This document shows, piece after piece, positions 5,226 through 62,967 of a stretch of DNA of 64,000 nucleotides (the first letter of the stretch is position 1; every line of letters begins with the position of its first letter). Where the stretch lies: the NCBI GenBank assembly GCA_002077065.1, contig NAJO01000055.1, positions 124,001-188,000 on the forward strand, in the 5' to 3' direction. Under the pieces are notes generated by a model. It saw only the letters and a program-made list of their open reading frames with translations, was not told the origin of the DNA and made no database searches. Source of the stretch: Cryoendolithus antarcticus (taxonomy: Eukaryota; Ascomycota; Dothideomycetes; Cladosporiales; Cladosporiaceae). Made by a program: the position numbers and the translations under genes.

Positions 5226-8200
5226 CTAGATGTCTTTGACCAGACGCGCGGTGGCCCAGGCGTAGGGATAGTTGCGTTGGTACCAATTCACGCTGTTTCA
5301 GATCAGCGAATGTACCTCATTGCTCTGCGCATACGCATCGATGGTGGCACTTACAACGACCTCCTCCCTGCAATGCGTGGTAGCGTAGCCCAAGATCCTC
5401 CAAGCACGACATTATGCTTGCCATCGAAAAAGTCAGCTGTGCATGTGTGGTCAGCTTACTTGCACCCTTCACTTCACCCTTACTCTGCACATCACTCACA
5501 GCTGTAAGCAGGGTACAACTCCATCGGCTCATATCCCTCATGCCTCTCCAGCACCGAACAAGTCCACTCCCAAAGCCCACCCATGCCTCCCTGACCGGCG
5601 AGCTTATTGCCATCTTGCGTGACACTCACAGTACCCCAGTGCTTGAAGCCTACATTACTGTCTCCCAACTCAGTAAACAGTGCTTCAGTCTCCAGGCCGT
5701 CGGCCTGGCCCTTTTCGCAACGGTGGGATGGAGGCGACTCCTGGACTCCCTCGTTGATCAGGTGCGCGTTGACAGCGGGGATGTTTGCGCCCAGAGTCTG
5801 CAGGGCTTGCTTGCGCAGATTCTCTGCGTGGGAGTAGATGCTCTGGGCCTCGAGCTGAGTTGGGATACGGCCGCCCATGTAGGCTGCGCAGCCGGCAAGC
5901 TCGTCATAGGAGGCGCTGACTGGATGGTGCAGCGCAAGTGAAAGTGGGATGGGACCATGGAATGTGCGCAGGGAAAGGGGTGCAAGGAAGGCTGGGAGGC
6001 CGGAGTATCCGTTCGTGTGGTTACTGGTGCCGTTGGTGTGGCCGTCGGTGTGTCCATTCGCGTACCCGTTGGAATGGCCGTCGACTTCACCGGTCTGGCC
6101 GTTCACGCCGTCGGTTGGTCCAGTGTTGCTCCAAGAAGCAGGGAGGTGGTCCTTTCCTATCTCGAAGAGGTACTTGGCGTACTCGCCATTCGTGATCGGG
6201 CGAGCTTTAGCCTTGAAAGCCTCGACAGTCTCCTCGCGGGCAGGCTTCTCGACATCCCATCCGAAGTGTCGCACTGGTCCAACAGCCCTTTCGGGATCGT
6301 CAAGCCCAGTCTTGATAGTCTGCGAGGGGATGTCGAACCACTGATTCTCCTCCGCCTCGTGATCAGCCTTATCAGCAAGCTGCTCAAATTCCGGGCGGGG
6401 CACTCCAGTGGGCGGCAATGTCTTGTCGCTCTGTAGTAGCATGTACAAGAGCGTTTCGAGATGCATCGCTTCGTGTTCATATCCAAGCCAGAGCACTCTT
6501 CCAGTCCAGGCATCGTCGTACGCCTGTCCAGTCTTGTAGAAGCTGGCGACCCGTTCATGCACACGATCCTGATAGTCTGAGATCTCTTCGACTGGCGGCC
6601 ACTCGTCAGGCACTTCGCTGTGAGCGTGACATTGAGCTGGATCATCAACCTACATTGTTGGGTCAGCATTATTCGACATCGACGACTCGCTGATTTTCCC
6701 CGACTCGCAGAGCACGTGCTACTTTCGACTGCGCTTCCACGGTGGTTTCGCTGACATGGCGTTAACCTTCGACGCCGAGAGCCGACCAAGTCGCGATATT
6801 TGCCATCACTTATAAGTCTCAACTGTATGCCATCTTAATCTCGACCCGCGTCGACGAAGCGCAGTCGACGATAGCAACAATGATCTCAAGAATTAAGAGA
6901 GAGGGAGCTACTTCAAACGGGAGGACAGACATCTGGATCGATTCCACGCTCGAAGATCTTACTGTATGCCGCCGGTTCAATTGGCTGCATGCCCGTTCCT
7001 TCGACGAGCTTCATCGACATGAAAGTCGGAATGTGCCCAAGATAGAATATACAGGCATTGCGAAGCTTGATCGGTTTCTCGTTCAGCTCCGCATCCGGGA
7101 TCATCTGCCTCGTGACAATCGTCCAGACTTTCCAAAGTCGATGCCAGTCGTCAAGGCTTGGCACTGGATGGCGTGCGTACTCGATCGGGTTGGTAGGAAA
7201 TACCATATTCTGACGTCTCGTGAGCATGTGTATGTCTGGCATATTGATCAGTCTCGTTTCATCGATCAATAGCGTGGTCGTCAGTGCGATTTTGCAAAGT
7301 TAGCATCGCTTACGATAATCTCCCGCGGTGTTCGACCAGACGGTTTTCTCGATGACGTCTCCATTGTCCCACAGCTTCCGCGTCTGCGCAGCGCTGTACT
7401 TCACAGACTCTTCGATGCGAATGCGTTCGCCGCCACGTATTGCGATGCCTGCTACAACGCAGTCTGATCTGGGCACGACATGTGCTCGGTGCAGACCCTC
7501 TGCAGCGCTGTACTCGCCTGCAGCGTACCAATTATTGAGGTCGAACGCATCGTACCCGAGTATCTTGTTGGCGTGATTTAAGCCGTTGATGGTGAATCGA
7601 TTCGTGACACCCTGCAAATCGTTGTACGCTTGGTAGACTCGTTTCGGCTCCTGACAGGCGTCCAAGCCAAGCAACAGAGTAGAGTTCGGACCGAGCGTAC
7701 CGGCGAATTGTTTCACGAACGCAGCAGCTTCATCTCTGTTGTAGTTGCCAACGCTCGATCCCAACGACATGATCGTCTTTGTTTGGCCGACCATTTCCGG
7801 GGTTGTGAGCCATTGCAGGCCATCATCGTAAGTCCCCAGTAGACCAAAGCATTTGACATACTTGAACGTGCCTTCAGGGACGGCAGCTAGTGTGCGCTCC
7901 AGCTCGGATCGCATCAGGTCGAGGGCGAAGTAAGTCACATTTCTCTTCGCGCGCTCTAGAGCATCTAGCAGGATCTTGACTTTGCGAAGATTCCTTGGTC
8001 AAGTCAGCTATGAGCACTCTCTCTCCCTTCGCTTGTCCGAATGTTCGACGCGGTGGAAAAGCTGTCATCAGCGCGTCCGCGGCTGGCAAGCGCTACATAG
8101 CCGTCCCTGCAAGAGCGCCGAGGCTGATACAAAGACGCTGATTAGCAGTCTGGTGTCTCTCGCCGATCTCGAGTGACAGGTTCGATTTCGCGAGTGCGGG

Positions 8201-60073: not shown

Positions 60074-61516
60074 CTACGTGACCAGATCGCCGACCGCCTC
60101 CGGAAACCCTCCCCACACCAATGCCCGATTACCCCATCGCTGCGGATGTGGCGCCAGAAATCGTACTCTCTTCTTCACCTCATCGACGTCCGCCACGTAC
60201 AGCCAGCCCATAACTGCGCTATCCCGAACCTCGCTTTCCTCCGTCCCACTCCCACTGCAGAACTTGATCGCCATGAGTGATGCAGTCATAGCTGTGCTAG
60301 GCTCAACCTTCTCGAACAGCGATCCGGATGAGTGAGATGAGCCATCAGGCTCGAAGTCCATACCAGGCTGGTACGCAGCATCGTCAGCTTCATCCGAGGG
60401 TGTCCTCGCGCGGTAGATAGACAGCTCGGAGAAGGGTATCGAGTGTGAGTGAGGGTTCAACGGCGTGTGTGGAGGTCCGAAGAAGTACTGTCGCGTTTCC
60501 TGTGCGCGAAGCAACTTCATAAACGCTGCATCGCGCTCCACGGCGCCTCCAGGTTTCGTGAGGCGAAGTACGGGAATCGCCTTGTCGTCGCCACGAGTCT
60601 GGCCGAAGCGGCGGTTGAGGTCATTGTACATTCGCTCTGAGCCGATGGTGATGAGATGCGTGATGCTGAATTCGCTGATGATGTGGGCGAGGAGGTCGTA
60701 TGACGACTTAGGATCGTTGAGGAAGCCGGGACTGTCGATTAGGAGACCACTGTGCTTCGCAGCTAGGGTTGCTTCGAGTTTGCCAGTCACATGAAGCGCG
60801 GCGTGAGTGAGCAAAGACTTGAAGGCGGCAGGATGCTCGGTAGGCGAGGCGTATGGCCAGCTGTAGATTAAAGGCGTCCTGACCGAAGCCGCCGTCGGGC
60901 CAGAGACAGGAGTGATGCCGAAGCCACTTTCGGTATCAGTCTGACTGGACACTGTCACAGCTGTGATGCAACCTGCGGGAGATAGTAGCCCTTCGCGTGG
61001 GTCGAGGTTCAATACTGTCGGAGACCGTCCAACGCGCACGCCCCAAGCTGCGAGGCTGCGAAGCAGACTGCTCTTCCCAACAGCGTCTGGACCAACTACG
61101 AGCACTCTCGGCCCTTCACCTTGCGTCCCAGAGTCCTCGGCCTCAGCACGCAGCGTCTCGAGCATGCCGTGCACGTTTAGCCATTCTGTAGCGTGCTCCG
61201 TTTCCTGTGCGACATACTCGCTCTCGGCGTCACCAGTGATCTCCAGAGTACAGCCATGCCAAGTGAAGACAGCGCCTTTGTAGCCAGCGAAGTCGCAGGT
61301 CTGTCCTACGGCGAGCTCGGTGCCCCAAAGCTCAGCCGTGCCCTGGGTAAGTTTGATGGTGTATTGCCTCCCGAAGGCGACCTCGAATCGCCATTCTGTC
61401 CGCTCATTCAGACGCTGTGTGCGCGTAACAGACTCTGCAGCCGCGAATGAGGGCAACGGCGCGCTCCGAGACTGTGGTGCTGTGGACAGTCCAAGGCCGG
61501 GCAGTGAGAAGGCCAT
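60074..61516 (-). CDS. CLP1: mRNA cleavage and polyadenylation factor CLP1
   Basis: Single exon, 480 aa, start MAFSLPGLGL. N-terminal beta domain (LNERTEWRFEV, GTAELWGTEL). The P-loop is VVGPDAVGKSSLLRSLAAW, followed by TVLNLDPREGLLSPAG, then LLIDSPGF (Walker B-like) and SERMYNDLNRRF. Clp1 is a subunit of cleavage factor IA, bridging Pcf11 and other 3'-end factors. It binds ATP, but fungal forms are not known as active RNA kinases. The P-loop here reads GPDAVGKSS, close to the consensus GxxxxGKS/T. C-terminal ELSIYR to end matches the family. It is divergent from the PT-domain gene, 407 bp apart. Confidence 0.93.
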   Translation of the reverse strand: MAFSLPGLGLSTAPQSRSAPLPSFAAAESVTRTQRLNERTEWRFEVAFGRQYTIKLTQGTAELWGTELAVGQTCDFAGYKGAVFTWHGCTLEITGDAESEYVAQETEHATEWLNVHGMLETLRAEAEDSGTQGEGPRVLVVGPDAVGKSSLLRSLAAWGVRVGRSPTVLNLDPREGLLSPAGCITAVTVSSQTDTESGFGITPVSGPTAASVRTPLIYSWPYASPTEHPAAFKSLLTHAALHVTGKLEATLAAKHSGLLIDSPGFLNDPKSSYDLLAHIISEFSITHLITIGSERMYNDLNRRFGQTRGDDKAIPVLRLTKPGGAVERDAAFMKLLRAQETRQYFFGPPHTPLNPHSHSIPFSELSIYRARTPSDEADDAAYQPGMDFEPDGSSHSSGSLFEKVEPSTAMTASLMAIKFCSGSGTEESEVRDSAVMGWLYVADVDEVKKRVRFLAPHPQRWGNRALVWGGFPEAVGDLVT

Positions 61517-61923: not shown

Positions 61924-62967
61924 ATGCATCCAACCAGCACATACGCTCTCTCGGCATCCTGCCAACAGATCACTGCCGAGTCCTTCGATCTGCAAGCAGG
62001 GACAGCAGACATCACGGTCAGATCATGCATCGCAGACCCCTGTCTTTGGCCCATCATTCGCGACCACAAATGCAATGGCGTCAACCTCACACCCTCCGGT
62101 CTATACGGAGACATGGCAATGACAGTCACAAAGTACATCGTATCGAAACTCCACCCAGACTCCGAGCACCCAGACTCCAAGCATCTTGGCCTGAACGTAG
62201 CAGACATGCACGTCGAGAAGACACTCATAGCCGACAATCCACAAAAGCCTGAGGGTCAGTGGATCGAGATGACAGCCTCTTGCGCTGGCCCAGAAGAACC
62301 CTCGCCAATTTACTGCACGATCTCTCAAGTCCAGCCTGATGGGACCGACATGCACAAGCTCGCCCACTGCATCGTTCATCTCGAGCCCGAGACTTCCTGG
62401 CACGCAGACTGGGCACCTATGAACCCTCTGATCCTCACGCAGATCCAGTCCCTCGAGTCCCGCTCTCGTGCCGAAGCCACAGGCAACATTCGTACAGTGC
62501 ACAAGGCTAAAACGTACGAACTTTTCAAATCCTTCGTCGAGTATAACGGGAAGTACCAAGCTATGACATCCGTCATCTACTCGACGCAACCTCTCGAGGC
62601 GACAGCTACGCTCTCCATCACCGCGTCGGTGGCTAAGGGCGATCTGGCTGGCCCATACCATCTAGACGGCTCATGTCACTTGTCGGGCTTCCTGTGCAAC
62701 GCTGCGGACAACGACTCGAAGAAGAACGCGTATATCAGTCATGGCTGGCACTCGGCGAGGATCTCTAGTAAGTTCCAGCCCGAGGGTGACGAAGTGCTGA
62801 GGAACTATGTCAGGATGATGCCCGAGGGAAAAGACGTGCTAGGTGGAACAGTGTGGGTGTTGCAAGGGGATGAAATTGTGGTTGTGTGGGAGGGTGTGCG
62901 CTTCAAGAAGATACCTCGACGAGTGCTGAATGTGTTCTTGCCGCCGCCGAAGGTAAGAAAGACTTGA
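61924..62967 (+). CDS. Stand-alone product-template (PT) domain protein
   Basis: Single uninterrupted frame of 347 aa that corresponds from end to end to the PT domain of non-reducing polyketide synthases, a double-hotdog aromatase/cyclase that directs folding of the polyketide chain. Seen: IIRDHKCNGVNLTPSGLYGDMA with His48, GLNVADMHVEKTLI, YELFKSFVEYNGKYQAM, LDGSCHLSGFLCN with Asp248, AYISHGW and IPRRVLNVFLPPP. His and Asp are in the positions of the known catalytic dyad, 200 residues apart as in PksA-type PTs. The start is at the normal PT boundary and the end just after it. No KS, AT, ACP or thioesterase is found within this window. Role could be a trans-acting cyclase or a remnant of a lost synthase. 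Confidence 0.85.
   Translation: MHPTSTYALSASCQQITAESFDLQAGTADITVRSCIADPCLWPIIRDHKCNGVNLTPSGLYGDMAMTVTKYIVSKLHPDSEHPDSKHLGLNVADMHVEKTLIADNPQKPEGQWIEMTASCAGPEEPSPIYCTISQVQPDGTDMHKLAHCIVHLEPETSWHADWAPMNPLILTQIQSLESRSRAEATGNIRTVHKAKTYELFKSFVEYNGKYQAMTSVIYSTQPLEATATLSITASVAKGDLAGPYHLDGSCHLSGFLCNAADNDSKKNAYISHGWHSARISSKFQPEGDEVLRNYVRMMPEGKDVLGGTVWVLQGDEIVVVWEGVRFKKIPRRVLNVFLPPPKVRKT

Follow-up and report, generated by a model that had tools for sequence, protein, structure and literature searches.

The stretch of DNA analysed here, referred to as the window, comprises 64 kb of Cryoendolithus antarcticus (positions 124,001 to 188,000 of contig NAJO01000055.1, contig C101 of the 47 Mb assembly) and carries, close to its end, a gene for a product-template (PT) domain that stands alone as a protein of its own. 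The features of the locus are given below, with residue counts for the two clades of free-standing relatives (clade 1 and clade 2) and, at one position, for the PT domains embedded in polyketide synthases (PKS).

61924 to 62967, plus strand: coding sequence of the free-standing PT, 347 amino acids, ATG to TGA, stop codon at 62965-62967, matching TIGR04532
62065 to 62067, plus strand: codon of His48, the catalytic His (PksA His1345); His in 90/90 clade 1 and 29/29 clade 2 covered rows
62092 to 62094, plus strand: codon of Pro57 (PksA position 1354); Pro in 84/90 covered clade 1 rows (6 Ser) and 29/30 of clade 2 (1 Ser)
62557 to 62559, plus strand: codon of Gln212; Arg in 118/121 synthase PTs, Gln in 86/101 and Arg in 15/101 of clade 1, Gln in 31/32 of clade 2
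62665 to 62667, plus strand: codon of Asp248, the catalytic Asp (PksA Asp1543); Asp in 101/101 clade 1 and 32/32 clade 2 rows
62950 to 62967, plus strand: C-terminal codons with the splice-donor-like AAGGTAAGA and the stop, taken as the true gene end
60074 to 61516, minus strand: CLP1, an mRNA cleavage/polyadenylation factor, the divergent neighbour, which also adjoins the second copy of the PT gene

The first-pass annotation had described one uninterrupted 347-residue frame with its own start and stop, and the open-reading frame (ORF) from ATG to TGA confirmed this. Its ATG encodes the first in-frame Met, following 45 codons without a Met after the upstream stop. At the other end, the codons of Lys343, Val344 and Arg345 read AAG followed by GTAAGA, a donor-like sequence 12 bases 5′ of the stop codon. 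We read the stop codon as real, since the second genomic copy (contig C2) has GTGAGG at the corresponding position, the relative P0002 has Lys instead of Val344 and a C-terminal end of KKRKT, and clade 1 relatives terminate 3-19 residues past Pro340 in a search limited to proteins of 0.55 to 1.75 times the query length.

Against TIGR04532, the polyketide product template domain and the sole NCBIfam family matched, the protein scored 255.7 bits (E 7.2e-76) where the curated cut-off is 168 bits, a match far beyond chance. The match extends over residues 11-341 and profile positions 2-329 of 329, in agreement with the earlier description of a PT domain from its usual first strand to its usual end. 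A Pfam scan of the protein gave PS-DH (31.9 bits), and the relatives found by sequence in the PDB at E ≤1 were four chains labelled aflatoxin, noranthrone or norsolorinic acid synthase. The PT of PksA has been crystallised after excision from its synthase (3hrq, 3hrr and 5kbz), and the free-standing PT, at 23% identity, matches its double-hotdog fold. His48 and Asp248 align with PksA His1345 and Asp1543, with a spacing of 200 residues here and 198 in PksA, placing both residues at the catalytic positions and spacing as had been proposed; the His48 position was uncovered in 11/101 clade 1 and 3/32 clade 2 rows. PksA is of the C4-C9 type (group IV) and has Thr1354 where this protein has Pro57. 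In passages of PMC5386248, this position is Thr in group IV and Pro in all C2-C7 groups, so that Pro57 carries the C2-C7 marker, which is a marker only and predicts regioselectivity at most. Of the SAT-KS-AT-PT-ACP set that makes up a full non-reducing PKS, PT is the only domain on the chain.

A protein search with the free-standing PT returned 108 relatives from many genera, supplying the single-domain orthologues that the first-pass annotation had proposed looking for. Among the genera are Rachicladosporium, Oleoguttula, Cercospora, Fulvia, Pseudocercospora, Septoria, Zasmidium, Lecanosticta, Hortaea, Elasticomyces, Friedmanniomyces, Venturia and Tothia, and some of the proteins are already named polyketide synthase or PT protein in public databases. 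Given the length limit of the search, none of the 108 is a full synthase. Contigs of 4 to 5 Mb carry some of them, indicating that at least those are not contig-end fragments, and others lie on short contigs or are without an N-terminus. A second search, using synthase PTs and the free-standing Venturia and Tothia PTs as queries, returned 49 proteins, 38 of them new, including a 348-residue free-standing PT of Trematosphaeria pertusa on a 2.4 Mb contig. The clade 1 counts derive from 109 rows (the 108 plus the window protein) minus eight, giving 101, and the clade 2 counts from those eight plus 24 of the 38 new proteins, giving 32, with rows outside of the trees assigned to a clade by elimination. 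Omitted from these counts were P0231, P0232, P0249, P0250 and P0259-P0268 of the second search, which were partial, carried other synthase parts or were poorly covered. The 121 synthase rows are 120 of 449 matching proteins plus P0110, a few of them shorter partial proteins. A long PT-bearing synthase was found alongside the free-standing PT in Cercospora beticola, Pseudocercospora fuligena, Zasmidium cellare, Lecanosticta acicola, Hortaea werneckii, Recurvomyces mirabilis, Meristemomyces frigidus, Elasticomyces elasticus, Teratosphaeriaceae sp. CCFEE 6253, Venturia nashicola, Tothia fuscella and the window species, which makes the free-standing PT an addition in these fungi.

Several of the proteins have peculiarities of their own. 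P0003 (Oleoguttula sp. CCFEE 5521) is without about 25 residues (window residues 283-307) found in close relatives, perhaps because of a mispredicted intron. Clade 2 proteins end 5 to 41 residues past Pro340, often in a lysine-rich tail, which is frequent in P0098, P0102-P0108 and P0233-P0246 and is possibly a localisation or binding signal. P0249 (Cadophora gregata, 606 residues) and P0264 are short and combine PS-DH/PT and PP-binding Pfam domains with no ketosynthase (KS), and would be either another partial-synthase architecture or an incomplete model. A scan of viral_contigs, which gave 20 pattern matches, produced no relative of the free-standing PT.

As had been proposed, the free-standing PTs were placed in trees together with PT domains from synthases. 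A maximum likelihood tree of 85 rows (43/109 free-standing and 42/121 synthase rows) and a second tree of 94 rows (49 free-standing, taken as 32/109 and 17/38, and 45/121 synthase rows) sampled the named species and a spread of the other rows; both are unrooted, with no outgroup. In the 85-row tree, the free-standing PTs form two clades of 37 and 6 rows, each supported at 100/100 and each nested among synthase PTs, with the 37-row clade and 21 synthase PTs sharing a 58-row branch (100/100). The 94-row tree again contains two clades, of 26 and 23 rows, the second of which joins synthases of Venturia, Tothia, Rhizodiscina and Aulographum (100/98). A single clade of free-standing PTs was rejected by the approximately unbiased test on the 85-row tree (p = 0.0039), and with it a single origin of all of them, unless the root lies inside a free-standing clade. 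With the root among the synthases there would have been two liberations of the domain, and PT has apparently become a gene of its own at least twice.

Comparison of the copies on C101 and C2 revealed purifying selection on the gene. The frame is intact in both copies, and the ratio of nonsynonymous to synonymous substitution (dN/dS) is 0.081 (bootstrap 0.054-0.119), based on 48.5 nonsynonymous and 117.5 synonymous differences with a dS of 0.78. The same method gave 0.063 for CLP1, 0.082 for the other neighbour, CTNNBL1, 0.017 for the whole synthase described below and 0.015 for its PT, indicating that constraint on the free-standing PT is about that on its housekeeping neighbours and weaker than that on the synthase. 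The first-pass annotation had argued for a selected function as opposed to plain debris, and that argument stands given this ratio, the single-domain relatives and no synthase exon found beyond the window. None of the marks of a pseudogene (a dN/dS near 1, frame damage, an absence of relatives) was found, and debris was rejected on the ratio, the second copy and the 108 relatives.

The free-standing PTs have nonetheless moved away from those in synthases. Of 87 positions at least 97% invariant in synthase PTs, clade 1 retains 37 at 90% or more, H48, N51, P57, D63, D248, H252 and N259 among them. Among 110 positions at 95% or more in synthase PTs, the synthase residue is lost in the majority of both clades at 9, and 3 of these (169, 180 and 212) have a common replacement in both; position 212 is the clearest change common to the two clades. 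The stretch from Tyr207 to Gln212 is one that we take to resemble the dehydratase YGPxFQ pattern. Two local substitutions were also observed: NGGV replaces SHGW (residues 272-275) in P0055, P0057, P0061, P0065, P0089, P0100 and P0109 of the Cercospora/Septoria group, with Asp kept, which suggests a different pocket in these relatives, and Asn51, present in 121/121 synthase PTs, is His in P0039, P0046, P0047, P0050, P0060, P0062 and P0064. The PksA dimer-interface residues K1489, T1490 and K1493, as named in passages of PMC9135731, were mapped by hand from the PksA alignment to positions 195, 196 and 199. Synthase PTs have G in 121/121, M in 118/121 and K in 121/121 at these positions, and clade 1 has G in 23/101 and K in 27/101 at 195 and 199, with M outside the six commonest residues at 196. 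Clade 2 mostly keeps 195 and 199 (G 27/32, K 21/32), which contradicts a change of the dimer surface common to both clades.

CLP1 on one side and CTNNBL1 on the other flank the PT gene at both C101 and C2. The minus-strand CLP1 bears out the earlier report of a housekeeping neighbour, and inspection beyond the 64 kb, which had also been suggested, found CTNNBL1 as the next large ORF and no synthase exon. A Pfam scan covered 19 of the 25 other window ORFs of at least 250 codons, giving a family in 14 (CLP1, NMD3, Pex2/12, Clr2, SNF2, IF-2B and TRF are among those scanned) and no family in 5; no synthase domain, polyketide gene or polyketide cluster was found among these 19. Six-frame searches, which give best candidates only and in which AT and TE were not searched, listed no other PT, KS or PP-binding match on C101, in line with the earlier claim that the window holds no other synthase domain. 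Fusion to a synthase exon outside of the window was rejected by the contig searches, by CTNNBL1 and by the GTGAGG of the second copy. At 5495-6649 on the minus strand lies an ORF with an FGE-sulfatase domain (33.8 bits), possibly an ergothioneine-type enzyme.

Elsewhere in the genome, TIGR04532 was matched in six places, namely the two free-standing PTs, two in a 2219-codon synthase frame and two below the cut-off. The 2219-codon frame occurs in two copies (C88 and C95) with KS, PT and two PP-binding matches, and a near-identical protein, P0111, has the Pfam domains SAT, KS, AT, PP-binding and thioesterase. This melanin-type synthase is the only non-reducing synthase found in the genome. Its PT resembles the free-standing PT in the TIGR04532 match, the His/Asp dyad and Pro57, and the trees group the free-standing PTs among such domains, but identity to the C88 and C95 domains is 44 and 43%, and the free-standing PT has no other domain on its chain and is its own gene beside CLP1. 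The melanin-type synthases (C88/C95 and relatives) would be makers of dihydroxynaphthalene (DHN) melanin, a view backed by labels such as PKS1 and by the scytalone dehydratase genes. Two scytalone dehydratase matches above 268 bits make a DHN-melanin pathway likely. Four modest matches to FrsA-like hydrolases (46.6 to 50.7 bits) were found, the family to which the melanin hydrolase Ayg1 presumably belongs, as were two chalcone-synthase-type (type III) matches on contigs other than C101. The two sub-threshold TIGR04532 matches (35.5 and 33.5 bits) belong to another synthase, at C89:334470-345659 and on C92, whose long frames contain KS, two carrier domains and a weak similarity to PT/DH, perhaps a PKS-NRPS hybrid. 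Most genes searched are diverged pairs (C101/C2, C88/C95, C89/C92, C72/C106 and C46/C13), with a dS of 0.35 to 0.78 in the four pairs for which it was measured, indicative of a hybrid or duplicated genome; the PT locus was the only place where conserved gene order between paired contigs was observed. For R. antarcticum, passages of PMC11412873 give protein counts above expectation.

On balance, and by a narrow preference, we favor a single-domain enzyme derived from the PT of a melanin-type non-reducing synthase and acting in C2-C7 type aldol closure of a poly-beta-keto chain. The PT domain of such a synthase would have been duplicated, cut loose and retained as its own gene, and the product would fold as a soluble double hotdog. 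His48, polarised by Asp248, would remove an alpha-proton from the chain, leading to intramolecular C2-C7 type aldol closure, with the synthase's carrier domain presenting the chain in trans, or the chain arriving free or as a released thioester; a type III synthase is another possible source. We infer the catalytic activity, the C2-C7 closure and the melanin-type synthase as partner, the last because it is the only non-reducing synthase found. The earlier suggestion of a trans-acting cyclase, or a hotdog enzyme in another pathway, is plausible. The isolated PksA PT was reportedly functional when added back to other synthase pieces by Crawford et al. in 2008. A number of observations weigh against the favored reading. 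The melanin-type synthase has its own PT (390 bits), and a second is not obviously needed; the gene sits among housekeeping genes, outside any polyketide cluster in the 19 window ORFs scanned; 39/87 synthase-invariant positions are below 80% in clade 1; and SHGW, present in 121/121 synthase PTs and 31/32 clade 2 proteins, is present in only 57/101 of clade 1. Residues 276 and 320 are His and Val in the window copy but Asp and Gly in the second, and this Val is the only one at its site among clade 1 rows, so the window copy alone might be under weaker constraint, and its relaxation is possible. In addition, passages of PMC10401856 describe a discrete SAT domain that failed in trans to restore another synthase, which advises caution in assuming that free domains work in trans.

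The divergence in clade 1 and the prevalence of Gln212 in most of both clades would also suit a neofunctionalised hotdog enzyme that closes or dehydrates a small diffusible substrate, such as a type III-released chain, a CoA thioester or a pathway intermediate, and no longer serves the melanin-type synthase. The two type III matches and the changed dimer-interface positions of clade 1 fit this account, but the dyad is retained along with much of what surrounds it, the two clades do not share the interface change, and nothing was found to link the protein to another pathway gene, the type III matches being on other contigs; we regard it as possible but doubtful. If trans catalysis is redundant beside the synthase's own PT, the protein may instead be a dimerisation or stabilising partner of that synthase or a binding protein, which is improbable given a dyad that does not vary in any covered row of either clade, something that a purely structural role does not demand. 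A relic of a broken synthase, its frame intact by chance, would account for a domain of a larger enzyme without synthase neighbours and for the two odd residues of the window copy. The dN/dS and the relatives already defeat it as a general account; both copies have the same neighbours and the relatives share the same domain limits, some on the megabase contigs, leaving it very improbable. Marginally less credible still is a gene-model artefact in which the frame would be one exon of a longer gene, joined through the terminal GTAAGA, since this good donor-like sequence right before the stop is countered by the second copy, by P0002, by no KS or PP-binding match listed on C101 and by CTNNBL1 as the next large ORF.

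As an aldol cyclase, the enzyme favored here would have counterparts in bacteria. AviM, in passages of PMC9135731, contains a PT that is an aldol cyclase with a His-Asp dyad and C2-C7 closure, but it is embedded in KS-AT-PT-ACP, and its fold, dimer and dyad orientation are described as nearer to dehydratases. The type II PKS aromatase/cyclases TcmN and ZhuI, in passages of PMC12664062, are free-standing single-domain proteins that guide first-ring closure and would work in a similar way, but they belong to bacterial type II systems, TcmN has a helix-grip fold, and the likeness lies in the mode of action. No description of a natural free-standing PT was found in the passages of the literature searched (including PMC9239057, PMC12139152, PMC10401856, PMC12664062, PMC5635595, PMC12470490 and PMC4936691), and we found none of the family itself, of its repeated origin or of the constraint on it, although public databases already contain the proteins. 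A KS signature and a KS-AT tree are described in passages of PMC5635595, and the choice of synthases by SAT and PT in those of PMC9239057; such screens would likely miss the family, and free-standing PTs have perhaps been overlooked since surveys target ketosynthase or starter domains.

PT domains set the folding of fungal aromatic polyketides, and the literature passages describe them only within large synthases. We suggest tentatively, as an idea that may well fail, that fungal type I non-reducing synthases have shed PT at least twice to yield a type II-like cyclase that acts in trans and, in many Dothideomycetes, adjusts how melanin-type (or other) polyketides fold. A natural free-standing PT allows a direct in vivo test of trans action. 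If the idea is true, fungi also use a type II-like division of labour, a compact cyclase would be at hand for biochemistry and engineering, and the free-standing PT may add an unrecognised step to the synthesis of melanin or related pigments in black fungi.
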